DNA of 22,091 nt from a virus. This document shows positions 4,441-21,191 of this stretch, piece after piece. The position numbers and the translations under genes were made by a program. How positions within the stretch are numbered: position 1 is the stretch's first letter; the number at the start of each line of letters is the position of its first letter. Location of the stretch: positions 1 to 22,091 of IMG/VR virus record IMGVR_UViG_3300023184_000567; one strand, given 5' to 3'. A model generated the notes under the pieces. That model saw only the letters and a program-made list of their open reading frames with translations. It was not told the origin of the DNA and did not search any database.

Positions 4441-5121
4441 ATGGCTAAAATTATCGCAATTTGTGGGTTCATTGGCAGTGGTAAAGATACTATTGCTGAT
4501 TATTTGGTTAATAATCACGGGTTCAAACGAGAGAGTTTTGCTAATAGTTTAAAAGATAGCGTAGCCACGGTATTTGGTTGGGACCGTGACATGTTAGAAG
4601 GTCGCAGTAAACAGAGCCGCGAATGGCGCGAAACGGTAGACCTGTTTTGGTCTACTCGATTAAAGATGCCAAAACTAACTCCTAGATGGGTCTTGCAATA
4701 TTGGGGCACCGAAGTAGTCCGTAAAGGATTCCATGATGACATGTGGGTAGCCAGCTTAGAAAATCGTCTACGATCTAGTACAGATGATATTGTTATTACA
4801 GACTGTCGATTTCCTAACGAAATTAAAGCAGTTAAACGTATTGGCGGACAAGTTGTGCGTGTTACACGCGGACCAGAACCTGAGTGGTATAATGATGCTA
4901 AGAGCATGAACAAAGGCGCCAGTCGTAATATGAGTTGGGCATTAAGTAAGCATCGTATTGAAGAATTAGGCATCCATGCTAGTGAAACAGCTTGGGTAGG
5001 ACAGAAGTTTGACGTGATATTAGATAACAACGGTACACTAGATAAATTGTACAACCAAATTGAGCCCTTACTTAAAAGTCAGGAACAAGATCACCCTGCC
5101 GCCAACCCAATCCCTCTTTAG
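4441..5121 (+). CDS. 1: Deoxynucleoside monophosphate kinase (T4 gp1 family)
   Basis: 226 aa, against about 241 for T4 gp1. This family phosphorylates dNMPs to dNDPs for phage DNA synthesis in the host cytoplasm. The N-terminus holds a P-loop, GFIGSGKDT (residues 9-17, Lys15). The body has FANSLKDSVATVFGWDRDML, LQYWGTEVVR and a DCRFPNEIKAV segment, all typical of the phage dNMP kinase family. The Shine-Dalgarno AGGGAG sits 6 nt before the ATG in a hairpin arm. The gene has its own sigma70-like promoter, unlike the late genes around it. The last 50 nt overlap the 3' end of the convergent minus-strand gene at 5072-5422. In T4, gene 1 is near gene 3 at the edge of a tail cluster; here it follows gp13. 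Confidence 0.92.
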   Translation: MAKIIAICGFIGSGKDTIADYLVNNHGFKRESFANSLKDSVATVFGWDRDMLEGRSKQSREWRETVDLFWSTRLKMPKLTPRWVLQYWGTEVVRKGFHDDMWVASLENRLRSSTDDIVITDCRFPNEIKAVKRIGGQVVRVTRGPEPEWYNDAKSMNKGASRNMSWALSKHRIEELGIHASETAWVGQKFDVILDNNGTLDKLYNQIEPLLKSQEQDHPAANPIPL

Positions 5122-5481: not shown

Positions 5482-5494
5482 TATAAATAGTTTA
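5482..5494 (+). promoter_or_regulatory. T4-like late promoter for the tail sheath gene
   Basis: A perfect TATAAATA (5482-5489) in TATAAATAGTTT. Predicted start is near 5495, giving a leader of about 28 nt that contains AGAGGA (5508-5513) before the ATG at 5523. It is the best consensus match in the window, as expected for a major virion protein. Confidence 0.8.
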
Positions 5495-5522: not shown

Positions 5523-8500
5523 ATGGCACTTATATCACCTGGAGTACAAGTAACGGTAACAGACGAAAGTCAATATACACCAACCGCGGCAGGATCAATT
5601 GCTTACGTTCTACTTGCTACAGCCCAAGACAAATTAACACCAAGCGGAACGCTTGCTACTTACACAACAGCAGCTAATGCTGGCAAACTATTTAACATTA
5701 CTAGTCAAAGAGATCTAGTATCAAAATATGGTAAGATTGAATTTGAAGTTGACTCAGCAGATAATCCATTACATGGTGATGAGCGCAATGAATACGGTTT
5801 ATTGGCTGCTTACAGCGCACTTGGCGTTAGCAATCAAATTTATATCCAACGTGCAGATGTTGACCTAGCTCAACTTACAGGCACAAGCATTCGCCCAACA
5901 GGTACACCAACAGATGGTACTTATTGGCTAGATGTGAGTTCTAGTGGTACTAATTGGGGTATTTATGAATGGGACGCCGATGGCGGGTTTACATTACAAA
6001 CTCCAAGAGTTATCACAAGTGCATCACAAGTAAGCGGCACAGTTCCTCTTACTTCAGTGGGGTCAATTGGAGAATATGCTGTAGTTACTACTAGCAGTTC
6101 AAATCCAGTTTATTATAAAGGTTATAACAATAATTGGTCATTGGTTGGTAGTGATGATTGGAAAGATGTTGTTCCTACTATCACTGGTTTAATTGCTAAT
6201 CCAGCTAACTTAGCAATTGGTCAAAAAATGCGCCTAAACGGCACAAACGTTACATTAACAGGAACAACAGTTACATCAACAGCCAGCGATATTAATTCAG
6301 CAAGCATCACTGGGGTCAGTGCTAGAGCAAACAGCTCTGGTGCAATTGAAATTTTTGTTGACAGCCTAGCTGCAAGCACAGGTAATATTTCATTAGCAGA
6401 CGGTAAACTAAAAATTGAAAAAGGCGGTACTAACGGTATTGGTGGCACAGACTGCTCAATGCGTTTAGGTATCTTTAATGCTACAGGTGATTCAGGTAAT
6501 ACTAAAACAATCCTTGGACCAACAGTAGCATTTGACAGCTATAGAAATGCTCCGGCCTGGAGAGATTCAGACACATATCCTCGACCATATGGTTCAGTAT
6601 GGTTTAAAACTTCAGCGACCGGTAACGGTGCTAACTGGGGTGTTAAAGAGTATGATGCTAATTTAGATTCATGGGCATTACAAAGTGCTCCGTTATATTC
6701 AAGCGACAATGCTGCAATCTACGGATTAAGTCCAGTGGCTGGTGGTGGTGATCTAGCAGTCGGTACATTGTATGTTCAATATGATACATTAGGTACAACG
6801 ACAGGTACAGCTAAATTATATCGTAAGAATACAGCAGGTGTAGTTAAAGTAACAGGCACAGTAGCAGGTGGTTCAGCTACATATACAACTAGTGATAGCT
6901 TTACAATGGAAGTTAGTGTTCCTGGCACAAGCACAACACAAAGTGCAACAATTACAACGATCGGAACTACAGCCGTTACTTTAGTTGCTAAGATTTTAGC
7001 CGCTAATTTACCCAACATAGTTGCTGCGATTGAATCAAGCGGTGCTATTAGCATTAGTCATCTAGCTGGCGGTACTATTAAATTTACATATGGTACAGGT
7101 ACACCATTAACCACAGCTGGTATTATCACTGATAATAAGATACAAGTAATTTCAGCAGGTAGTGTATATCTAGCTAGTCCATTTAAAGCTCTAACATATA
7201 CGTACTCAACAACTGCACCATATAGTAATCCAACAGATGGTACACTATGGTATTACAATAGTGCGTTAGAAGTTGACATCATGATCAATGATGGTAGTGG
7301 TTGGAAAGGTTATCAAAACGTAGCAAATGATTCACGTGGCTATGACCTATCAGCCACAGATGATGCTGGTCCTATCCTTGCAGCCGCAGAACCAACACTA
7401 CAAAGTGGTGGCGGACAATTAGTAGCAGGCGATATATGGATTGACACTGGTGATTTAAATAACTATCCAAAGATTTATCGTTACAATGGTTCAGCGTTTG
7501 AATTAATTGATAACACCGACCAAGTAACTACAGATGGTATCTTATTTGCAGATGCACGTTGGGCTACCGATGGTTCAACAAATCCAGTCGTTGATGATAT
7601 TCCAACTATCGTTAGTTTGCTATCCAGCGATTATTTAGACTATGATGCACCAGACTATAGACTATATGCACGTGGTACATTGTTGTTTAATACTCGTCGT
7701 AGTGGATACAACGTTAAATCATTCAATAGCACAGCTTTAGCAGATGATCCAACCCCAGCATCAGTAGTTGCTGCTTGGGTAAGTGCTAGTGGTAATGATT
7801 CAAATGGTGTTCCATATATGGGTCATAAGGCGCAACGTAATGTTGTTGTAGAAGCCCTTAAAGCTGCGATTGAGTCAAGCACAGCACTACGTGAAGAACA
7901 AACACAGTTTAACTTAATTGCTTGCCCAGGTTATCCTGAGTTAATCAGCAACATGATTACACTGAACAATGATCGCAAACAAACAGCGTTTATTATTGGT
8001 GATAGCCCATTGGCATTAAATTCAAGTGATATTCAACCTTGGATACAAAATACTAATCTAGCACTAGACAACGGTGAAAACGGCCTAGTAAGCCATAGTG
8101 AATACCTAGGGGTTTACTATCCAAGTGGTTACGGTACAGATCTAGCAGGTGAGAGTGTTGTTGTCCCAGCATCACACATGATGTTACGTACAATGATCCG
8201 CAGTGATAATGTTAGCTATCCGTGGTTTGCACCAGCTGGTGTACGACGTGGCTTGATTGACAATGCTACAAGCATTGGTTACATTGATGTTACTGATAGT
8301 AACTTGTTTAAATCGATTGGAGTAACAGTTGGCTTACGTGATACACTATATGCTGATAATGTTAACCCATTAACAGTACTTCCAGGCGTTGGTCTGGTAG
8401 CATATGGTCAAAAGACACGTGCTAGTATGACAAGTGCAATGGATCGTATTAATGTGTCAAGACTAGTTGCTTACCTACGTTTAGTATTAGATAAAGTTGC

Positions 8501-8762
8501 TCGTCCGTTCATATTTGAACCAAATGATACAATTACACGTAATCAAGTTAAATCAGCATTCGAAAGTGTGCTAAATGACCTAGTTGCTAAACGTGGTTTA
8601 TATGACTACTTGGTAGTTTGTGATACAACAAATAACACACCAGATCGTATTGATCGCAATGAATTGTATGTTGATATTGCTATCAAACCAGTTAAAGCAA
8701 TTGAGTTTGTTTACATTCCAGTAAGAATTGTTAACACTGGTGCAGCTTTAACAATAGCATAA
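5523..8762 (+). CDS. 18: Tail sheath protein gp18 with a very large internal insertion
   Basis: 1079 aa, against 659 in T4. gp18 forms the contractile sheath around the tail tube. The first ~125 residues (MALISPGVQVTVTDESQYTP, then SKYG and AAYSALGVSNQIYIQRADVD) and the region from about 690 to the end are canonical sheath: DYLDYDAPDYRLYARGTLLF, ACPGYPELI, WFAPAGVRRGLID, LPGVGLVAYGQKT, SRLVAYLRLVLDKVARPFIF and the terminal IAIKPVKAIEFVYIPVRI. Between them lie ~560 Gly/Ser/Thr-rich residues. These contain repeated DGT.W/GD.W...Y.Y...W units and two copies of a beta-type unit ending SSGAI.I (near 271 and 505). The insertion stays in frame with the same base composition, so it is not an assembly artefact. 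It probably decorates the sheath exterior (inference). Start set by AGAGGA and the late promoter. Confidence 0.93.
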   Translation: MALISPGVQVTVTDESQYTPTAAGSIAYVLLATAQDKLTPSGTLATYTTAANAGKLFNITSQRDLVSKYGKIEFEVDSADNPLHGDERNEYGLLAAYSALGVSNQIYIQRADVDLAQLTGTSIRPTGTPTDGTYWLDVSSSGTNWGIYEWDADGGFTLQTPRVITSASQVSGTVPLTSVGSIGEYAVVTTSSSNPVYYKGYNNNWSLVGSDDWKDVVPTITGLIANPANLAIGQKMRLNGTNVTLTGTTVTSTASDINSASITGVSARANSSGAIEIFVDSLAASTGNISLADGKLKIEKGGTNGIGGTDCSMRLGIFNATGDSGNTKTILGPTVAFDSYRNAPAWRDSDTYPRPYGSVWFKTSATGNGANWGVKEYDANLDSWALQSAPLYSSDNAAIYGLSPVAGGGDLAVGTLYVQYDTLGTTTGTAKLYRKNTAGVVKVTGTVAGGSATYTTSDSFTMEVSVPGTSTTQSATITTIGTTAVTLVAKILAANLPNIVAAIESSGAISISHLAGGTIKFTYGTGTPLTTAGIITDNKIQVISAGSVYLASPFKALTYTYSTTAPYSNPTDGTLWYYNSALEVDIMINDGSGWKGYQNVANDSRGYDLSATDDAGPILAAAEPTLQSGGGQLVAGDIWIDTGDLNNYPKIYRYNGSAFELIDNTDQVTTDGILFADARWATDGSTNPVVDDIPTIVSLLSSDYLDYDAPDYRLYARGTLLFNTRRSGYNVKSFNSTALADDPTPASVVAAWVSASGNDSNGVPYMGHKAQRNVVVEALKAAIESSTALREEQTQFNLIACPGYPELISNMITLNNDRKQTAFIIGDSPLALNSSDIQPWIQNTNLALDNGENGLVSHSEYLGVYYPSGYGTDLAGESVVVPASHMMLRTMIRSDNVSYPWFAPAGVRRGLIDNATSIGYIDVTDSNLFKSIGVTVGLRDTLYADNVNPLTVLPGVGLVAYGQKTRASMTSAMDRINVSRLVAYLRLVLDKVARPFIFEPNDTITRNQVKSAFESVLNDLVAKRGLYDYLVVCDTTNNTPDRIDRNELYVDIAIKPVKAIEFVYIPVRIVNTGAALTIA
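5907..7530 (+). repeat. Degenerate protein-level repeats inside the tail sheath insertion
   Basis: Short beta-hairpin-like units recur: DGTYWLD...WGIYEWD (from Asp131), GEYAVV...VYYKGYNNNW (from Gly183), GSVWFK...WGVKEYD...SW (from Gly357), GTLYVQ...AKLYRK (from Gly414), DGTLWYY...GSGWKGY (from Asp572) and GDIWID...KIYRYNGSAF (from Gly636). The common pattern is G-[DST]-x-[WY] followed by x-Y-x-Y and W. They match the style of small modules in phage tail fibres and other surface proteins. DNA identity between copies is low, so they are old. Confidence 0.6.
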
Positions 8763-9515: not shown

Positions 9516-9529
9516 GATAAATAATATAA
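9516..9529 (+). promoter_or_regulatory. T4-like late promoter downstream of the gp19 terminator
   Basis: CGATAAATAATAT with TAAATAA at 9518-9524. Predicted start is near 9529, with GGATAAG (9532-9538) as a weak Shine-Dalgarno before the ATG at 9543. It restarts transcription for the gp48/54-like operon. Confidence 0.7.
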
Positions 9530-12546: not shown

Positions 12547-12560
12547 GATAAATAACAAAT
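12547..12560 (+). promoter_or_regulatory. T4-like late promoter for the inter-terminase gene cluster
   Basis: AGATAAATAACAA with TAAATAA at 12549-12555. Predicted start is near 12560. The short leader contains TAGGATA, exposed in the loop of a weak AATATA/TATATT inverted repeat, before the ATG at 12577. Confidence 0.65.
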
Positions 12561-12576
12561 ATAGGATATATTACGT

Positions 12577-13179
12577 ATGAAAAACTTTTTAAACTACTTA
12601 GAACAAAGCCAAAAGACCTACGAATTCCGTATTAAGATCGCTAATACTGATCCAGCAGAAAAGTTTGCTGCATTAGAATCAGCATTAAACGCCTACGGTT
12701 TAGAAAGTCTCAGCAAGCCAAAACGCTTGCCACTTAAAGAAAGCGATATTGACTTTCCTAATCACGGCACAGTAGAGTTATATTTGATGGACGCTGTACT
12801 AAAATATCCATGCAATGAATATCAACTACGCACAGTTATCGCTGAACGTGCTGGTATCGCACAGGCTAATATTGTTGTAGTTCCTAAAAATCATCCTGAA
12901 GAGCAACGTCGCTGGAACGAAAACGACACTAGTGATATCAAAGAATACAAAAAAGGTGAAGCTGTATTAGATAAGCCATATGAAGACAATCCAGAAGCTA
13001 AAAAAGCTGGTGATGCTTATGCTAGTTTCAATAGCATCCTTAAAGAATTAACTGAGATCAAGTTAGCTGAAGCAGAAGGCGGTAAGACACCAGAAGCTAA
13101 AACAACTAATGATCTACCTGTAGGTGAAAAGAGCCCTGTAGGCAGTAATCAAAATAAAATACCTAAAGCGAAAAAATAA
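12577..13179 (+). CDS. Putative head-associated protein with capsid-targeting-like N-terminus (200 aa)
   Basis: Starts MKNFLNYLEQSQKTYEFRIK. The first ten residues resemble the T4 internal-protein capsid-targeting peptide (MKTYQEFIAE), although the exact L/I-x-E cut site is not present at that point. A globular alpha/beta region follows: KTYEFRIKIA, ESLSKPKRLPLKESDIDFPN, VELYLMDAVLKYP and QLRTVIAERAGI...NIVVVPK. I recall this pattern from T4-like aquatic phages, usually next to head genes. From about residue 105 it is charged and low in complexity, ending Lys-rich. The stop overlaps the next ATG (TAATG), indicating coupled translation with the 980-aa protein and possibly joint assembly. Function unknown. 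Confidence 0.78.
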   Translation: MKNFLNYLEQSQKTYEFRIKIANTDPAEKFAALESALNAYGLESLSKPKRLPLKESDIDFPNHGTVELYLMDAVLKYPCNEYQLRTVIAERAGIAQANIVVVPKNHPEEQRRWNENDTSDIKEYKKGEAVLDKPYEDNPEAKKAGDAYASFNSILKELTEIKLAEAEGGKTPEAKTTNDLPVGEKSPVGSNQNKIPKAKK

Positions 13180-16121
13180 TGAGTAACGGCATCTACGATA
13201 TCTTAGGCAAGCTCAATGGATTACAACCAAAAGATAATCCTGTGAGCATGTCTGCTGAGCCTGTATACGAAAGCATAGATCCTCAAGATATCACTTCTGC
13301 TGTAGACAGCCTAGAAGAAAAATACCAAAACTTTTTAATTGAAGAAACTGCTAAAAAATCACAGGCTCAAAAAGATGCTGAGATATCCAGAGGTGAGCCA
13401 GAGATCGTTAAACTATTAAACAAATCAAGATTAGAACGACCTGCAGCGGCCAGCGACACAGAAGCACTGGCATATCAGATGGTTAAAGCAAATAAAGAAT
13501 TAGAAAAAGCAACAGCAGCCAATGACGAACAAGAAAAGAAAATAGCTGATCTACAGGCTAAGGTTAGTGCAGTACCAACAGCACCACCAACCGTCGAGCC
13601 AACGGTGCTAAAACCAACCCCATCAGCGATTCCTCCTGTGGCACCAACAACAGCTCCAGCACAAGCCCAAGCAGAACCAACTGTGGATAGATTACCAACA
13701 CTAGCGAGAGAACCAGCAACTGCTACAACTCCAGCACAAAAATCTGCAGATGTTGTTAACTTTCCAAAAACTGCAGCGCAAACCGGAACGACATACAAAC
13801 CTGCGGGAAATAAAAAGCAATCAGTTGGTGGTAAAGTTGCTCCAAGCGATGTTGCTATTCCTGGTGAAACTATCCCAGATGAAGTCGCACAAGCAAGAGC
13901 TGCAAGAGCTGCTAAATTAAAACCAGCAGATGTTGGTGGGTTTGCACCTATTGGGCAAGCAGTTGGACAACAATTTGATACAAAACAAGAGAATAAACTT
14001 ATGAAAGATATGTTAAAAGAAAGTATAGAAATGCTAAGAGAATATAAAGAAGGCTCTCCAGAGTTGGGTATCTATAACTACAATGACATGCTGAAAAAAT
14101 TCCAATCAGGTCAACAAAGAGTTACATTAAATTTTGGTACTAGTAAACCACCACTTACACTTTATGATTATCAAGCGTATGGATTGCTAGCAGTTCTAGG
14201 CAGTGATCAGGATCAAGAACGTAAAGTACAAAACATTGAAACTACGATGTCTAACTATGATGCTGTAGTTCAACTGTTGATGACTCCACGAGTAAAAAAA
14301 TACATTAGTTTATTCCCAGAATTTGCCTCAAAGAGTCCAGTGTTTAAAGCACGTGCCAGCATTGAAAAAGGGAGTAAGTTTAAGTTAAGTGCGCCAGATC
14401 CAAAAAAAGGATTCCAAGATCCAAACTATAATCCTAAAACAGATCCAAATTCACCAGAATATGATCCAAAATATCCTGTACACCCCTATCAACAAGGTGA
14501 TACACAATTAGAAGAAAACTCAGGAAACGATACCATGCAAGAAAATGTCAAAACTAACAGCATCTTAGAAGGTGTTCGCCAAGTTGAAATTAAGAAACTA
14601 CGTGAAGCTGCTAAGCCAGACTTTTTAGATCTAGACAAAGACGGTGACACTGATGAGCCAATGAAGTCTGCGGCCAAAGATGCTAAAAAACATGAACCGG
14701 CTGATATAGACAAAGATGCAGTTGCTAAACGTAAACGCTTACAGGCACTTAAAGACAAGCAAGAAGATGAACGTGCTGAGAAAGGTGATTATGATGATGA
14801 GAAATCATCTAAACGTGTTGTCAAAGGTCGTGCCTACGGTGGTGCCGCTCAGAAAGATGACGAAGATAAAGATGACTTAGAAGAAGTAGCACCTCCAGGT
14901 GCTAAAGCTGAACGTATGGTTAAACATGTTAAGAAAGGTTATGCTAAAGATGGTAAACTATCTAAACGTGAAAAAGGTATCGCTTACGCGACAGCATGGA
15001 AAGCACATAACAAAGGCCAAGTAGAAGAAGGCACAAATTTTGGAGACACTATTAAAAACAGTGAAGGTAAAATGACTAAAGTAAAAGTTACAGAAGGTAA
15101 AGATGCGATACGCAATCACCCAATCTATACAACAAAAGAAGCATGGGATCACTATTCTCAAGAACTAGCAGAACAAGAAGCCATGGACCAAGAAGTGATG
15201 GAAGCTCCAATGGTTGATGTCCAACAAGAGCTAGATGAGATCGCAAAACTTGCAGGCCTTCCACCTAAGATGGAAAGCAAATGTTCAAGTTGTGGTTGTG
15301 CAGATTGCAAATGTACAACATTAGAAGAAGCTGCGACACGCAAAGACTTCCGCCAAGCTGCTGATACGATTAAAGATATTGAAGATTTAGAAAAACGTAA
15401 AGAACATGCACATCATTATGCTGATTTCTTTAAAGAACAAAATCCACGTTTCAAACGCGAAATGTTCTTAGCCGCATGCGGTTTAGAAGAATGTGATTAT
15501 AATATGAGCGCACAACCAGCAACAATCATAGTTGGTGAAACAAATGGATGTCCAGTATGTAACGAAGATCCATGTATGTGTGATCGCGAACGTGAAATGG
15601 GTGAAGGTAATGAGTTTACTAAAGCACGTTTAGATGCTATCGCACAAGGTGCTGATACATTCACAGTTGGTGGTAAAACATACAATGTAAGTGGTGATAC
15701 CAGTGATGAAAAAACACAAGTTGAATCAATGAATGAAGACATTAATGTTAATATTACTGCTAACGGTGAGCAAGATGCACTAAATCTACTACGTAAATTA
15801 TCAGGTATGGCAGAAGTCCCACACGTAACAGGCGTTGCGATTCCAATGGGTGAAGAACAATCGACATGTGAAGCATGTGGCATGATGCCATGTGGTTGTG
15901 AAGAATCTGTAGAAGAAGAACGTGATATTGAACTAGCTAATACTCCACATGAAAAAACAGCACCAATCAATGCAGTTACAACAGATGCAGGCGGTGGCTT
16001 AGGTGGTGTTAAGAAACAGTACCCATTGGCCGCTAACCGTGGTGCTAATCCATTAGAAGAGCAAGTTGAAGAAAGTCTTTGGTCCGCATATGAAACGATG
16101 ATCAATGACGTTAAGGCATAA
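13179..16121 (+). CDS. Large mosaic acidic protein, candidate prohead scaffold/core or internal protein (980 aa)
   Basis: Ordered modules: ILGKLNGLQPK (8-18); a coiled coil (about 93-127); a Pro/Ala/Thr-rich linker (about 130-200); a helical domain (about 270-410); an EF-hand-like loop DLDKDGDTDEP (484-494); a Lys-rich helix pair AERMVKHVKKGYAKDGKLSK...AYATAWKAHNK (about 576-611); IAKLAGLPPK (688-697); three CxxCxxxxCxC knuckles (702, 791, 897); TRKDFRQAADTIKDIEDLE...NPRF...AC (about 720-770); FTVGGKTYNV; LLRKLSGM (870-877). Many of these modules recur, in my recollection, in unrelated combinations in aquatic phage structural proteins. ILE-G (462-465) and LEE-A (715-718) fit the T4 prohead protease preference (L/I-x-E). 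No enzyme motif is visible. Position between gp16 and gp17 favours a head-assembly role (inference). Confidence 0.75.
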   Translation: MSNGIYDILGKLNGLQPKDNPVSMSAEPVYESIDPQDITSAVDSLEEKYQNFLIEETAKKSQAQKDAEISRGEPEIVKLLNKSRLERPAAASDTEALAYQMVKANKELEKATAANDEQEKKIADLQAKVSAVPTAPPTVEPTVLKPTPSAIPPVAPTTAPAQAQAEPTVDRLPTLAREPATATTPAQKSADVVNFPKTAAQTGTTYKPAGNKKQSVGGKVAPSDVAIPGETIPDEVAQARAARAAKLKPADVGGFAPIGQAVGQQFDTKQENKLMKDMLKESIEMLREYKEGSPELGIYNYNDMLKKFQSGQQRVTLNFGTSKPPLTLYDYQAYGLLAVLGSDQDQERKVQNIETTMSNYDAVVQLLMTPRVKKYISLFPEFASKSPVFKARASIEKGSKFKLSAPDPKKGFQDPNYNPKTDPNSPEYDPKYPVHPYQQGDTQLEENSGNDTMQENVKTNSILEGVRQVEIKKLREAAKPDFLDLDKDGDTDEPMKSAAKDAKKHEPADIDKDAVAKRKRLQALKDKQEDERAEKGDYDDEKSSKRVVKGRAYGGAAQKDDEDKDDLEEVAPPGAKAERMVKHVKKGYAKDGKLSKREKGIAYATAWKAHNKGQVEEGTNFGDTIKNSEGKMTKVKVTEGKDAIRNHPIYTTKEAWDHYSQELAEQEAMDQEVMEAPMVDVQQELDEIAKLAGLPPKMESKCSSCGCADCKCTTLEEAATRKDFRQAADTIKDIEDLEKRKEHAHHYADFFKEQNPRFKREMFLAACGLEECDYNMSAQPATIIVGETNGCPVCNEDPCMCDREREMGEGNEFTKARLDAIAQGADTFTVGGKTYNVSGDTSDEKTQVESMNEDINVNITANGEQDALNLLRKLSGMAEVPHVTGVAIPMGEEQSTCEACGMMPCGCEESVEEERDIELANTPHEKTAPINAVTTDAGGGLGGVKKQYPLAANRGANPLEEQVEESLWSAYETMINDVKA
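15282..15899 (+). repeat. Three zinc-knuckle-like CxxCxxxxCxC coding repeats
   Basis: CSSCGCADCKC (residues 702-712), CPVCNEDPCMC (791-801) and CEACGMMPCGC (897-907) of the 980-aa protein share exact C-x2-C-x4-C-x-C spacing, while the residues between are different. Each is followed by an acidic stretch. Four thiolates per unit is enough for one metal ion. Confidence 0.75.
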
Positions 16122-16122
16122 T

Positions 16123-16455
16123 ATGAAAGAGCTACGTGAATTTGTTGAAATGATGGATGCCATCGAAGCAGGACAGCCTATCCAAGAAGAAGCTGTTGAC
16201 CTAGCTCAGATCAGTGACATGTTGGATCAACTTGAAGAACATCTCAATCAGGCGGCGGGCATTGCCAACGATCTAGCACGAGTAGGTCGTGACGTTCCGG
16301 GCCCATTTGCAGGACAGATCCGGAGTTACCTAGCACCACACTTAGAAAGTTTCTTAGATGATCGCCGCCAACCAGGTAGCATTCCTAGCCTACGCGGTAT
16401 GTTGATTGACAGCAGTGAAGACGACCAAGACGACGATAGTTATGAAAATCAATGA
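16123..16455 (+). CDS. Small acidic helical protein, CTS-like N-terminus, unknown function
   Basis: 110 aa from the ATG at 16123, 1 nt after the stop of the 980-aa gene, with AAGG at 16113-16116 as Shine-Dalgarno. An in-frame ATG at 16105 lies inside the upstream gene and is less likely. The protein starts MKELREFVEMM, similar to the T4 capsid-targeting peptide, and has a PIQE-E site (19-23) fitting the prohead protease preference. The rest is helical (DMLDQLEEHLNQAAGIANDL), then GPFAGQIRSYLAPHLESFLD, ending very acidic (SSEDDQDDDSYENQ). No known family recognised. Confidence 0.72.
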   Translation: MKELREFVEMMDAIEAGQPIQEEAVDLAQISDMLDQLEEHLNQAAGIANDLARVGRDVPGPFAGQIRSYLAPHLESFLDDRRQPGSIPSLRGMLIDSSEDDQDDDSYENQ

Positions 16456-16828
16456 AATAGTTACAGAAAGCACACGAGGTAAAAAACCTCACAGTGCTCG
16501 CAACGCAGATGTAGGTGAATGGTTATTCCGTGACGAAGGTATAGATCGTGGTTATAACTTAAACCGTGTTATGATGGCCTCAGCCATGCATGATGGTAAA
16601 ACTACCAATGCTGTTGACATGCCTGACGCTAGTTGGGTTGAAAAACACAATGTAGCCATTCCTTATACCGAAGAAGAACACCGTATGATGCAGGGTGCGT
16701 TTAAAACAGTCGGAGCCAATTATCAGCATACAGGTAAAGTTCACAAGAGCGTAGAAAATGATGATGTGCATAAACACAGCGCAGTGCCACACAATGCTGG
16801 TGCACGTCGTAATAAACCAAAAAATTAA
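16442..16828 (+). CDS. Unknown protein with CTS-like N-terminus (128 aa)
   Basis: The start at 16442 (MKINEIVTESTRGKKPHSAR) overlaps the end of the preceding gene by 14 nt. The upstream ATG at 16406 would extend it into a low-complexity Thr-rich stretch read out of frame from the previous gene and is rejected. The first nine residues, MKINEIVTE, are followed by Ser, similar to a T4 internal-protein leader cut after Glu. The conserved-looking core is VGEWLFRDEGIDRGYNLNRV and the PYTEEEHRMMQGAFKTVGAN segment. The C-terminus is His/Lys/Arg-rich. I recall similar proteins in uncultured aquatic phages, without function. Basic charge would suit DNA binding inside the head (inference). Confidence 0.72.
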   Translation: MKINEIVTESTRGKKPHSARNADVGEWLFRDEGIDRGYNLNRVMMASAMHDGKTTNAVDMPDASWVEKHNVAIPYTEEEHRMMQGAFKTVGANYQHTGKVHKSVENDDVHKHSAVPHNAGARRNKPKN

Positions 16829-17137
16829 ATGACAAAACAATACTCAATCCGCACACAAGACTATACTACTTCTCATATTGAAGAAGCTGTATTAGATGAT
16901 GCTGATCCAATACATGAAATCAAAGCTCTGGCAGGACTTAGTAGCATTGGTAATCTAGGCAAGTTACAAGAATACAAAGGCCTAGAAAGTGAAATGTCTA
17001 ATCAAGGTAGCAATCCCAGCATTACTGCTATGGAAAAAATCAAGCATCAAAAAGAGCATGATATCAAACCAGGTACACCAGAGTGGTTCCGTCTTTGGTT
17101 CAGCCTACCATACCTGACAGGCGAAAAACCCTGGTAA
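16829..17137 (+). CDS. Small protein immediately upstream of gp17, unknown function
   Basis: 102 aa; the ATG directly follows the TAA of the previous gene and lacks a Shine-Dalgarno, so translation is probably coupled. It has an HIEE-A site (16-20) compatible with prohead protease cleavage near the N-terminus, an EIKALAGLSS motif (30-39) like those in the 980- and 811-aa proteins, and a distinctive aromatic end, GTPEWFRLWFSLPYLTGEKP. The position just before gp17 could suggest a terminase partner, but gp16 is identified elsewhere and this protein lacks its coiled helices. Confidence 0.72.
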   Translation: MTKQYSIRTQDYTTSHIEEAVLDDADPIHEIKALAGLSSIGNLGKLQEYKGLESEMSNQGSNPSITAMEKIKHQKEHDIKPGTPEWFRLWFSLPYLTGEKPW

Positions 17138-17160
17138 TTGTAATACCTCTTTAAACTCAA

Positions 17161-17173
17161 GATAAGTAACTGT
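17161..17173 (+). promoter_or_regulatory. Late-promoter-like element giving a candidate leaderless gp17 mRNA
   Basis: GATAAGTAACTGT then ATG at 17174. TAAGTAA (17163-17169) differs from TAAATAA at one position and stands exactly four bases before the ATG, the same spacing as at gp16 and at 18756. No Shine-Dalgarno is visible. Confidence 0.45.
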
Positions 17174-18742
17174 ATGGCTACAGCAAAAGGTACAGACTCA
17201 GTTCTAGTAAAAAAACCTCATCAACAAGAGAGTTTTACTGAACATCAACTGAAAGAATTCGCCAAGTGCGCAGATCCTGTCGCCGGTCCTGAATACTTTA
17301 TGAGTAACTATTTCTATATACAGCATCCTACACAAGGACGTATGTTATATAAACCATTTGAGTATCAAAAACGATTAATACATTCATACCATGCTTACCG
17401 ATTCAGCATCTCACTGATGCCTCGACAAACAGGTAAATCAACATCAGCTGCCGGATACTTACTCTGGTATGCCATGTTCGTGCCTGACAGCACTATCCTG
17501 ATTGCCGCACACAAATACACAGGCTCACAAGAAATCATGCAACGTATACGTTACGCTTATGAAAGCGTGCCAGACTTTATACGTGCTGGTGCTGTGAGTT
17601 ACAACAAAGGTAGCATTGACTTTGACAATGGTAGTCGCATAGTGAGTGCTACTACAACAGAAAACACTGGTCGAGGTATGAGTATTTCGTTACTATACGC
17701 AGATGAGTTTGCCTTCGTGCGCCCTACCATAGGACGAGAATTTTGGACTTCAATCAGCCCAACCTTGGCCACTGGTGGTAAATGTATTATTACTAGTACA
17801 CCCAACAGCGATGAAGATCAGTTTGCTACCCTATGGAAAGGTGCTAACAAACAGTTTGATGAATTTGGTAATCCTACAGAACTAGGCGTTAACGGATTTA
17901 AGGCTTTTAGAAGCTATTGGAATGAACATCCAGACCGTGATGAAGCATGGGCAGTACAAACTCGTAGTCAACTAGGTGATGAACGTTTCCGCCGTGAGAT
18001 GGATTGTGAATTTATTATCTGGGATGAGACACTGATCAATCCTAGTTATCTGATAGAACTGCAAGGTATAGAACCGCTCGAACGACAAGGACAAGTACGT
18101 TGGTATAAACGCCCCGATCCTAAGATGACTTATCTAGTAGCATTAGATCCTAGCCTGGGCACAGGTGGTGATCCTAGCGCCATACAGGTATTTGAATTAC
18201 CTACATTTATTCAAGTAGCAGAGTGGCAAAATAATCGCACACCTGTACAGCAACAGATAGGTATCCTTAGTGAAATCACCAAATATCTAGCAGAAACCGT
18301 ACCCGTAAACAGCATCTATTACAGTTTAGAAAATAACACGCTAGGTGAAGCGGCACTGATCAGCGTAGCAGAGATAGGTGAAGAAAATATCCGAGGAACA
18401 TTCCTAAGTGAGCCAGCCAGGATGGGCACTAGTCGTAGATATCGAAAAGGATTTAATACCTCAAATAAACCTAAAATAACCGCCTGTGCAAAACTTAAGA
18501 GTTTAATAGAAAGCAAGCGCATGACTATCTATAGTCGCCCATTGATCAGCGAACTAAAAACCTTTGTAGCCAGTGGATCTGGTTTTGCGGCTAAACCAGG
18601 TGAAACAGACGATTTAGTTATGAGTTTGGTATTAATAATACGTATGGCACAGCTACTACAAAGCTATGATGCTAGTCTAGACACCGCTATGAAAGATGGC
18701 TTAGATGATTTCATTGAGCCAATGCCATTTATAATTCTTTAA
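17174..18742 (+). CDS. 17: Terminase large subunit gp17 (packaging ATPase/nuclease)
   Basis: 522 aa, shorter than T4 gp17 (610) but complete in both domains. It pumps DNA into the prohead and cuts the concatemer. ATPase: Walker A PRQTGKST (Lys88) and Walker B LLYADEFAF (Asp177, Glu178), followed by ITSTPNSDEDQF (coupling motif region). RNase H-like nuclease: LVALDPSLGTGGDPSA (Asp325), YYSLENN (Glu386) and GETDDLVMSL (Asp479/Asp480). The N-terminal region HQLKEFAKCADPVAGPEYF resembles other T4-like gp17 proteins. The gene lies 36 nt after the 102-aa gene with its own promoter-like element. It is separated from gp16 by five genes. Confidence 0.96.
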   Translation: MATAKGTDSVLVKKPHQQESFTEHQLKEFAKCADPVAGPEYFMSNYFYIQHPTQGRMLYKPFEYQKRLIHSYHAYRFSISLMPRQTGKSTSAAGYLLWYAMFVPDSTILIAAHKYTGSQEIMQRIRYAYESVPDFIRAGAVSYNKGSIDFDNGSRIVSATTTENTGRGMSISLLYADEFAFVRPTIGREFWTSISPTLATGGKCIITSTPNSDEDQFATLWKGANKQFDEFGNPTELGVNGFKAFRSYWNEHPDRDEAWAVQTRSQLGDERFRREMDCEFIIWDETLINPSYLIELQGIEPLERQGQVRWYKRPDPKMTYLVALDPSLGTGGDPSAIQVFELPTFIQVAEWQNNRTPVQQQIGILSEITKYLAETVPVNSIYYSLENNTLGEAALISVAEIGEENIRGTFLSEPARMGTSRRYRKGFNTSNKPKITACAKLKSLIESKRMTIYSRPLISELKTFVASGSGFAAKPGETDDLVMSLVLIIRMAQLLQSYDASLDTAMKDGLDDFIEPMPFIIL

Positions 18743-18755
18743 GATAAATACTTAC
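18743..18755 (+). promoter_or_regulatory. T4-like late promoter giving a candidate leaderless mRNA for the 811-aa gene
   Basis: GATAAATACTTAC with TAAATAC at 18745-18751, then four bases, then ATG at 18756. The predicted +1 is the A of the ATG. No Shine-Dalgarno is present. Confidence 0.65.
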
Positions 18756-21191
18756 ATGAGAGAAATTGACAAAATCGCAGAAGGTCTATTTGAAAAAATC
18801 CGTGATAGATTTGAGGATGTTAGCCTAGGCAACGATAACGCCAAAGCCACTACAGATCCGCAAAAAGCACGTTTTTTCAACTTTGACTATGTTGTAGATG
18901 ATGCAAACCATGGTAATATTACCATGAGTTTGATTGATGAAATCAGCTTAAAAGTCTACTTTAGCAAAAACATCAGCAGTGATCTAGATGACGAACAGAA
19001 AAAAGAATGGTATAGCTTCCTACGTGAACTACGTGAATTTGCCCGTAGAAACCTATTGAGTTTTGAGCCGCGTGACATAACACGTAGCACACTAAAACAT
19101 CGTGACATCCAACAACAAAGTAAAGCTGACAGTACCTACGATGCAGATGAAGTAGTTGCTGAAAGCCGTATGTATGGTACATTAAATCGTAGCTATGAAA
19201 GTTTTGGTCCTGTGCGTATTAAGCTACAGCATACTAAACCAATCATGGATGAAGCGCATGGTGCACGTAGTCGTAATATTGCCGCAGTGTTTGTAGAAAA
19301 TGATCAAGGTGAAAGATTTAAATTACCATTTGAAAACTTAACTGGTGCACGTGCCATGGCACGCCATGTGTCAGCTGGTGGGGTTCCTACAGATGAACTA
19401 GGTCGCCACATCACTGAGATGGTAAATGAAATGACTACACTACGTCCGTTTGTCAGAGGTATGGCTCGTCGTACATTTGAAGACGCTGTTACTAAAGAAA
19501 TGGTAGAATCAGCATTTGGCTATCATGCTTTATTAAAAAATACCTTGAAGAAACTCAAAGGTAAACGCGGTTATACAGAATTTAAAGAAAGCTTCAAACC
19601 GGCATTGGTCGAAGATGATGCAAACGTAGCAGAACTCAAAGAGTTGTTTGTTAAGAAAATACTTGACGAACGAATTGAACAAGCACTACCACTAGTACAT
19701 AAGGCATATAACATCATGAAAGAGAATAATAATCCATACGCACAACAATTTGAAAATTGGGCTGACAAATTATCTGAAGGTAGCTGGGCACTTCCCGATA
19801 CTGATGATGATGTTGAGCAATTAATTGATTGGATGAGTGAAGAACACCCAGTGGGTGTTGACGCACAAGACGCTACAAACTCATTATACAACATCATTGG
19901 TGATGATAACTTGTTTGATCGTTTACAAGAATTAGCAGATATTGATCCTACAGCAGATGCACGTGATGTAGTTACAAGTTGGTTATACGATAACTTGCCA
20001 CAGGTTTACCAACGTATTGAAAGTGAAATGGGTGATCCGGATACGCCGGCAGAACCATCAGAAGACAATCAAGAAGTAGATGAATCATATACTCCTCCTC
20101 CAGTGATGATCAATGGTAAACAAGTTGATATAGGCAGTATTGAATTAGACGGTGTTGAGTCATGGGACCGCCCAGACTATGCTGATGCTTATGCCAGCGC
20201 CGCAACTTTTACAGATGGCACACCATTATCAGATGATGAATTAGATACATTAAGTAATCAGCATGGTGACATTATTAATATGAAAGCGCATGATATGTTA
20301 GAAGGCAACGAATATGGCGAAGCTATTCCGGGTGGCACAGAGAACATGCTAGCAACAACAAATGAAGATGATGACAAAGATGAATTAAGTGATATCGAAT
20401 CGATACAATCAGCAATTATCCGTAGAATCTTAAACAGTATTAATGATCATAGCGAGTTACTTAAGAAAGCAGGCCCAGAAGGTATCATGAATGCTTCACT
20501 TGATGTAGCATCATTCCACGCACCAATGGAAGAAATAGGTTCAAGCGATATCAGCATCATGGTCCGTGAAGTATACCGTGAAGTGGGCGTAGACTATCCA
20601 GAAGACGAGGTAGCAGAAGCCAAAGATAAAGTAACATACGATCCTAAGACAGGCAAACTGTCAGGTTGGGAACACGAAGGTGATTGGAAAAAACAAACTA
20701 AGAAGAAAGACCCTGTTGGTAAAGTACATCACATGAGTGACGTTGCCCGCAGACGAACAGAAAAGATGGCTAAAGATGAGACACTAGAAGAAGCATTTGA
20801 AAGATTAGTAAATGAAGGAGCAATCAACGTAGGCGATGTGATCAGAGATAAAACTCAACCAACTATCCAAGGTAAAGTAGTAGGCGATATGGATGAAAAC
20901 TATATTATACAAGTTGAAGATGATCAATACCATATTAAAAAATTAAATGCAGAAAAGGTGGCCAAAGAAGCGATTGAAATGCCAGATAATCCAGATTATA
21001 GTGGATATGACAAACCAACATTCCAACGTAAAGGTATTACACCAGGACAACCAAACAAAACATTACCAGGTATGGCTGATAAGAAAAAACCAGGATGGAC
21101 GGGATATAATACAGATGAACCTGCATACAAAAGACAAGCAGATTATAATCAAGAAAGAGAACAAATGAAGAAACTAGCAGGCTTAAAATAA
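18756..21191 (+). CDS. Large conserved phage protein, candidate internal/core head protein (811 aa)
   Basis: Starts MREIDKIAEGLFEKIRDRF; IAE-G (7-10) is an exact L/I-x-E site and the leader resembles the T4 capsid-targeting peptide. Modules: an N-terminal alpha/beta domain (1-125); ARSRNIAAVFVENDQGERFK then LTGARAMARHVSAGG (about 170-210), a pattern I recall from aquatic T4-like phages; helical regions (about 270-420); INGKQVDIGSIELDGVESWD...DGTPLSDDELD (about 450-510), a small recurring phage domain; LEE-A (677-680); an SH3-like strand set GDVIRDKTQPTIQGKV; and a C-terminal MKKLAGLK (804-811). No catalytic motif was found. It directly follows gp17, has its own late promoter and ends at a terminator. 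A virion or prohead-associated role is the best inference. Confidence 0.75.
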   Translation: MREIDKIAEGLFEKIRDRFEDVSLGNDNAKATTDPQKARFFNFDYVVDDANHGNITMSLIDEISLKVYFSKNISSDLDDEQKKEWYSFLRELREFARRNLLSFEPRDITRSTLKHRDIQQQSKADSTYDADEVVAESRMYGTLNRSYESFGPVRIKLQHTKPIMDEAHGARSRNIAAVFVENDQGERFKLPFENLTGARAMARHVSAGGVPTDELGRHITEMVNEMTTLRPFVRGMARRTFEDAVTKEMVESAFGYHALLKNTLKKLKGKRGYTEFKESFKPALVEDDANVAELKELFVKKILDERIEQALPLVHKAYNIMKENNNPYAQQFENWADKLSEGSWALPDTDDDVEQLIDWMSEEHPVGVDAQDATNSLYNIIGDDNLFDRLQELADIDPTADARDVVTSWLYDNLPQVYQRIESEMGDPDTPAEPSEDNQEVDESYTPPPVMINGKQVDIGSIELDGVESWDRPDYADAYASAATFTDGTPLSDDELDTLSNQHGDIINMKAHDMLEGNEYGEAIPGGTENMLATTNEDDDKDELSDIESIQSAIIRRILNSINDHSELLKKAGPEGIMNASLDVASFHAPMEEIGSSDISIMVREVYREVGVDYPEDEVAEAKDKVTYDPKTGKLSGWEHEGDWKKQTKKKDPVGKVHHMSDVARRRTEKMAKDETLEEAFERLVNEGAINVGDVIRDKTQPTIQGKVVGDMDENYIIQVEDDQYHIKKLNAEKVAKEAIEMPDNPDYSGYDKPTFQRKGITPGQPNKTLPGMADKKKPGWTGYNTDEPAYKRQADYNQEREQMKKLAGLK

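Follow-up and report, generated by a model that had tools for sequence, protein, structure and literature searches.

Two short sequence signals proposed for head loading of terminase-region proteins in a giant T4-like phage and its relatives

The terminase region of the phage fragment described here likely encodes proteins of the head interior or head lining, and two short signals would direct these into the prohead. One would be an N-terminal leader, M[KR]...[FIY][ILV]-x-E, docking the 128-aa protein and most of the 200-aa proteins on the assembling scaffold core, with a protease of the S77 family (gp21 type) predicted to cut after the leader Glu during head maturation; the same leader would tag many unrelated proteins elsewhere in the genomes of giant T4-like phages. 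The 811-, 980-, and 102-aa proteins, which have no leader, may use the tail of the scaffold, hhxxLAG[LI], to enter the prohead and stay in it, this tail probably binding the target of the scaffold tail (shell or portal) and holding the three proteins at the inner surface. We infer this role for the LAG tail because its sequence is shared with the end of the gp22 scaffold.

The window and its relatives

The window, i.e., the entire stretch analyzed, 22,091 nucleotides of the IMG/VR record IMGVR_UViG_3300023184_000567, represents part of the genome of a giant T4-like phage, a relative of PA5oct. Its terminase shares approximately 55% identity with the one encoded by the Pseudomonas jumbo phage PA5oct and 51-54% with those of Sinorhizobium phage Phosso and Agrobacterium phage Atu_ph07, and metagenomic contigs of up to 354 kb share 69-98% terminase identity with the window. 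The gene order matches that of PA5oct, from the sheath through two tube proteins, head closure, a 163-aa protein and the 200-aa protein, and on through the long Glu-rich protein, the terminase, the 811-aa homologue and an SSB-like protein, with gp279 as one additional PA5oct gene between the terminase and the 811-aa homologue. The gene at positions 4441-5121 is found at the slot of the PA5oct deoxynucleoside monophosphate kinase (a kinase with a virion mass-spectrometry note) and directly precedes the 1079-aa tail sheath gene (5523-8762), in the same order as in PA5oct.

As to the presence of the terminase-region proteins in virions, proposed in the earlier note, support is indirect: in the PA5oct record, ESI-MS/MS notes are attached to gp282 (equivalent to the 200-aa protein), gp281 (at the position of the 980-aa protein) and gp278 (the 811-aa homologue), all in the same gene order. 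Such notes are also attached to the PA5oct leader proteins gp333 and gp246, and not to gp213, gp75 or the scaffold gp330; strict leader matches with the note amount to two of five, too few for use in an enrichment. For Atu_ph07, 131 virion proteins are reported (PMC6102473).

The sequence [GT]ATAAATA is found in the window on the minus strand at 1845-1852 and on the plus strand at 5482-5489, at 9516-9523 and at the two positions listed in Table 1. All five matches precede an ORF start by 5-33 bases, in correct orientation, although their number is at the level of chance. These sites look like T4-type late promoters.

Table 1. Features of the terminase region, in window coordinates
Feature	Position	Strand	Remarks
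GATAAATA, T4-late-promoter-like	12547..12554	+	Precedes the 200-aa gene
200-aa protein; its family has a T4-like leader of 10 residues and an S6/ferredoxin-like domain	12577..13179	+	39-sequence alignment
Leader MKNFLNYLEQ of the 200-aa protein	12577..12606	+	P1 Gln in this copy; most relatives have Glu
980-aa Glu/Lys-rich protein	13179..16121	+	Leader absent; two LAG-type motifs; three CxxC-x-CxC units
IAKLAGL motif, internal, aa 688-694 of the 980-aa protein	15240..15260	+	
LRKLSGM, second LAG-like motif, aa 871-877 of the 980-aa protein	15789..15809	+	
110-aa protein, MKELREFVEM	16123..16455	+	CTS resemblance unsupported; relatives read MKELREFIELMDAI
128-aa protein, CTS-like leader conserved	16442..16828	+	32 N-termini compared
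Leader MKINEIVTE, predicted cut before Ser10	16442..16468	+	Close to T4 gp24 leader (M)AKINELLRE-S
102-aa protein, immediately 5' of the terminase gene	16829..17137	+	IEE-A unconserved; LAG motif conserved
IKALAGL motif, aa 31-37 of the 102-aa protein	16919..16939	+	
Large terminase, gp17-type	17174..18742	+	phrog_36964 E=3.8e-121; Pfam Terminase_6N E=5.3e-18
GATAAATA, T4-late-promoter-like	18743..18750	+	Upstream of the 811-aa gene, 5 bases from ATG
811-aa virion structural protein homologue	18756..21191	+	phrog_13484 virion structural protein E=3.6e-15
C-terminal tail MKKLAGLK of the 811-aa protein	21165..21188	+	Common to gp22-type scaffolds

Leaders at the N-termini

In T4, internal proteins join the scaffold core via a capsid-targeting sequence (CTS), which they then lose to gp21 (PMC5694885; PMC9958956). 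The earlier note likened to this leader the starts of the 200-, 110-, 128-, and 811-aa proteins and an IEE-A site at residues 17-20 of the 102-aa protein, and all five are present where it had placed them. By the strict (L/I)-x-E rule of T4 gp21, only IAE-G (811 aa) and IEE-A (102 aa) fit, while YLE-Q and LEQ-S (200 aa), FVE-M (110 aa) and VTE-S (128 aa) break the rule. Conservation reverses this ranking, raising the 128-aa and 200-aa families and lowering the 811-, 102-, and 110-aa proteins. Comparison of N-termini over relatives, suggested in the same note and carried out here, thus upholds the resemblance for the 128-aa protein and the 200-aa family, with their conserved E9 and E10, respectively, and removes it for the other three. 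The clustering of such N-termini had been considered the stronger point; the five shrink to two leader-bearing families, and this argument was inflated because three of the five resemblances are due to chance. What stands of the capsid-targeted cluster is a T4-CTS-like leader of fixed geometry in the 128-aa protein and the 200-aa family, with which the S77 protease and the gp23 site of the relatives agree.

The 128-aa family has an N-terminal leader of the CTS kind, approximately 10 residues ending in (L/I)-x-E before A, G or S. Over 32 distinct relatives it reads M-[KR]-[IA]-x-[ED]-[IF]-[IVL]-x-E, with E9 and [ILVFM]xE each present in 31 of 32 and [IL]xE in 24 of 32, the copy in the window reading VTE-S, with Val at P3 instead of Leu or Ile. 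Column entropies show residues 1-9 to be conserved, save for the variable position 4 and a free P2, and conservation drops sharply from residue 10 onward, a pattern expected of a removable leader. The nearest known sequence is the start of the T4 vertex protein gp24, MAKINELLRE-S (shared KINE..xE-S), from which gp21 removes the first 10 residues (PMC9958956); however, gp24 is a shell protein, while the 128-aa protein is small and has no match to gp24. Profile searches against Pfam and PHROGs returned no function for the 128-aa protein, and none for the 110- and 102-aa proteins.

The leader of the 200-aa family, MKxFxxY[LI]xE-S (commonly MKxFxxYLTE-S), shares with T4 MKTYQEFIAE-A its length, M1-K2 and E10, with position 8 hydrophobic and positions 4 and 7 aromatic in both. 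In the 39-sequence alignment, K2, F4 and E10 are among the best conserved columns, E10 (30 of 35 sequences) being nearly invariant while mean column identity is 48%. This family too has a leader of the CTS kind, but the copy in the window reads LEQ-S, missing the P1 Glu, as do the homologues of PA5oct (YYDAS) and Phosso (LSSV), and cleavage therefore cannot be essential to the 200-aa protein. In the predicted model of the 200-aa protein (m8e79499a05c8), a helix at residues 4-10 is followed by a domain with S6/HPPK-like matches, from which, as they are weak, no conclusion is drawn.

The remaining three N-termini do not have a leader of this kind. In the 110-aa protein, [IL]xE is present at residue 9 in one of nine relatives, and IxE at the 102-aa site in 3 of 44 family members. 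In the 811-aa family, E9 is found in only 36 of 70 sequences, and the residues that follow (LF-x-KIR-x-RF) are better conserved; the N-terminal domain of this protein has a predicted fold of fair confidence (pLDDT 82), with no PDB match below E 0.06.

Similar leaders are apparent across the giant relatives. Among the genes called in nine of these, 331 start with MK or MR; of these 331, 6.3% have [FYIVLH][ILV]xE ending at residue 9 and 2.7% have it ending at residue 10, versus 0.3-0.6% for the same residues in genes with other starts and after internal Met. Only MK/MR starts thus show a peak at these two positions. At the level of families, with one random member per family drawn from twelve genomes and 200 shuffles preserving residue 2, 18.9 leaders were seen versus 4.5 in the shuffles (with a maximum of 10 in the 200), approximately four times chance. 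About 25 unrelated families in the giant relatives hold at least one leader-bearing member, the same leader thus being present on unrelated proteins. As a positive control, T4 was scanned: the strict pattern recovers ipII and ipIII, a looser one recovers gp21, gp22, gp24 and gp2, and most of the proteins recovered are known protease substrates or head proteins. Leader-bearing proteins of the relatives include a GNAT-like match, along with weak RegB-like and metallopeptidase-like matches.

Some leader-bearing, unrelated ORFs occur in runs, at L142:6855-10906 (genome G004) and L117:10407-16367 (genome G002), where leaders are found on tandem GNAT (MRAQEFLLE-Y), RegB-like (MRFSEFVAE-Q), metallopeptidase-like (MRASDFLIE-G), DUF6321 (MKFEEIVTE-T) and PGDYG-like (MKPTEFVTE-L) proteins, which we regard as candidate packaged enzymes. 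In T4 itself, gene 61.1 (AF158101, 18966-19130), encoding a hypothetical protein of 54 aa, has a CTS-like start, MKTFKEFIKE-D. The PA5oct gene for gp333 (L163:22922-23143; 82921-83142 of the record), encoding 73 aa, is located in the interval between portal and protease, the position of T4 gp67, and its product starts MKINDIITE-G, its relatives having starts of the MNIFELFD type.

The window fragment does not include genes for the prohead protease or gp23, and these were sought in relatives. Of the 16 records searched, 10 encode both an S77 protease and gp23, including PA5oct, Phosso, Atu_ph07 and 121Q, and every gp23 of the clade examined has a matching site, [LF]-x-E followed by [NTS]-A, at about residues 42-50 or slightly later. 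Between the protease and gp23 genes sits the gene for the gp22-type scaffold, which in several phages has a leader-like start, M[ST]KLEKLLKE-S. The sequence at the gp23 cleavage site, E-NASAGSTTSGNIATL, recurs in other proteins, as FIAE-NASAGGTSSGSIATVA at G004:270700-270906 and as VEE-TASAGASSAGGIASVA at aa 42 of PA5oct gp281; no site like these (VEE-TASAGASSAGG of gp281, FIAE-NASAGG of G004) is present in the window.

The scaffold-tail motif beside the terminase

The second proposed signal is the hhxxLAG[LI] sequence at the extreme C-terminus of the 811-aa protein, which ends in QMKKLAGLK. In a scan of whole genomes, 10 of 10 gp22-type scaffolds end likewise, with LAG[LI] or LSG[LI], their endings including VVDIKRLAGLK, VEELRRLAGIK, INDLKRLAGIKK and IHELRRLAGIEK, with a variant, LKELDVLSGINKK, in 121Q; five more scaffolds, examined singly, have weaker endings (SGINKKR, SGIIKK, AGIRK, AGIRK and AGIHKK). 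When every gene of fourteen sequences was scanned for a C-terminal LAG, 20 matches were found, versus a shuffle mean of 1.3, and 18 of these belong to gp22 (10) or to the 811-aa family (8). Of the 69 complete homologues of the 811-aa type, approximately 390 to 1170 aa in length, 51 end in the tail motif and 18 lack it; the homologues in PA5oct and 121Q are without the LAG tail. The tail is likewise absent from T4 gp22 and from two cyanophage gp22 proteins.

In two further families, a LAG-type motif is found internally only: in 15 of 15 complete homologues of the 980-aa protein and 43 of 46 of the 102-aa protein. PA5oct gp281, at the 980-aa slot, has two such motifs. Since the motif is present in the 811-, 980-, and 102-aa families and absent throughout the 200-, 128-, and 110-aa families, the genes of the terminase region divide into leader carriers and scaffold-tail carriers. 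That two very large packaged proteins are encoded here, as the earlier note had it, is plausible; the leader route suggested for them is not upheld, both being devoid of a leader and carrying the scaffold-tail motif instead. LAG sequences in the PA5oct ATPase gp149, and those of a few proteins of membrane or fibre type, were set aside as chance matches. The 980-aa protein also has CxxC-x(n)-CxC units, at aa 702, 791 and 897, some of them after LAG-type motifs, and the number of such units in its homologues varies from 0 to 3.

Scaffolding proteins of P22, phi29 and herpesvirus possess C-terminal tails that bind the coat. As in these, the scaffolds considered here have a short conserved C-terminus; unlike in these, the tail also ends a family of virion proteins that are not scaffolds and is found internally in two other families. 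In the open-access literature searched, nothing relevant to the C-terminal motif of the scaffold was found, and the shared scaffold tail, if confirmed, is the new part.

Alternative readings and known systems

Could the N-termini be ordinary conserved amphipathic helices, their likeness to the T4 leader arising by chance? Such an interpretation does hold for the 811-aa protein, in which conservation continues through LFxKIRxRF, and for the 110- and 102-aa proteins, but as a general one it is quite unlikely, given that conservation in the 128-aa family stops at E9, that MK/MR starts alone show the peak of the motif at residue 9 or 10, and that unrelated families have the leader above the level of shuffles. 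A leader that serves as a docking peptide for scaffold or shell and is kept uncut, cleavage being incidental, would explain why P1 Glu is replaced in the 200-aa proteins of the window (by Gln), PA5oct and Phosso, with much of the leader otherwise kept. This too is unlikely, as E9 and E10 are among the best conserved letters and P2 is free, the pattern of a protease site, in both families, and as the LxE site also occurs in the gp23 of these phages.

As to the LAG motif, the location of the 980-, 102-, and 811-aa genes on both sides of the gp17 gene might be taken to point to the terminase or some other packaging partner, rather than the target of the scaffold, as what the motif binds. However, the most constant carrier of the motif is the gp22 scaffold, encoded far from the terminase, between the protease and gp23, and in gp22 the motif is always C-terminal, making a terminase-binding role very unlikely. 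Loading into the prohead by a cleavable leader and by the scaffold tail is thus the reading we prefer for the terminase region. Its extension to giant T4-like phages in general is tentative: these may load their heads via two separable tags, a cleavable leader and a copy of the scaffold tail (hhxxLAGhK), with non-scaffold proteins imitating the tail to get inside the shell, and both tags may be readable from sequence.

The closest known system is the CTS of T4 IPII and IPIII (MKTYQEFIAE-A). Like the CTS, the leaders described here are N-terminal, 9-10 residues long, with an MK or MR start and a hydrophobic-x-E before a mostly small residue, they are found on unrelated proteins, and the relatives possess an S77 protease. 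Unlike the CTS, they belong to uncultured giant T4-like phages, their letters are different (MKIxEIIxE, MRAxEFIxE, MKxFxxYLTE), and their packaging and cleavage are predicted. In T4, the sorting of proteins into the scaffold core is still called mysterious, and IPII and IPIII are the only proteins on which the CTS is known (PMC9958956). In the open-access literature searched on capsid targeting in jumbo and T4-like phages, only the work on SPN3US was found. The head propeptides of phiKZ and SPN3US are cut at A/S-x-E and are thought to act in a CTS-like manner (PMC5694885). The similarity is in the processing of giant-phage head proteins after Glu, predicted in our case, but the phiKZ and SPN3US propeptides are mostly longer than 100 residues, the protease is of the S80 family, and a gp22 counterpart is unconfirmed (PMC5694885), while the phages considered here have leaders of 9-10 residues and a clear gp22. 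In kind, then, the leader is a known signal; its location and the proteins bearing it are new.

Overall, the leader and the scaffold-tail motif present two concrete sequence signals for testing, from which the internal cargo of uncultured giant phages could be predicted. They also offer a route to listing candidate injected proteins, predicted enzymes among them, in phages known only from metagenomes.
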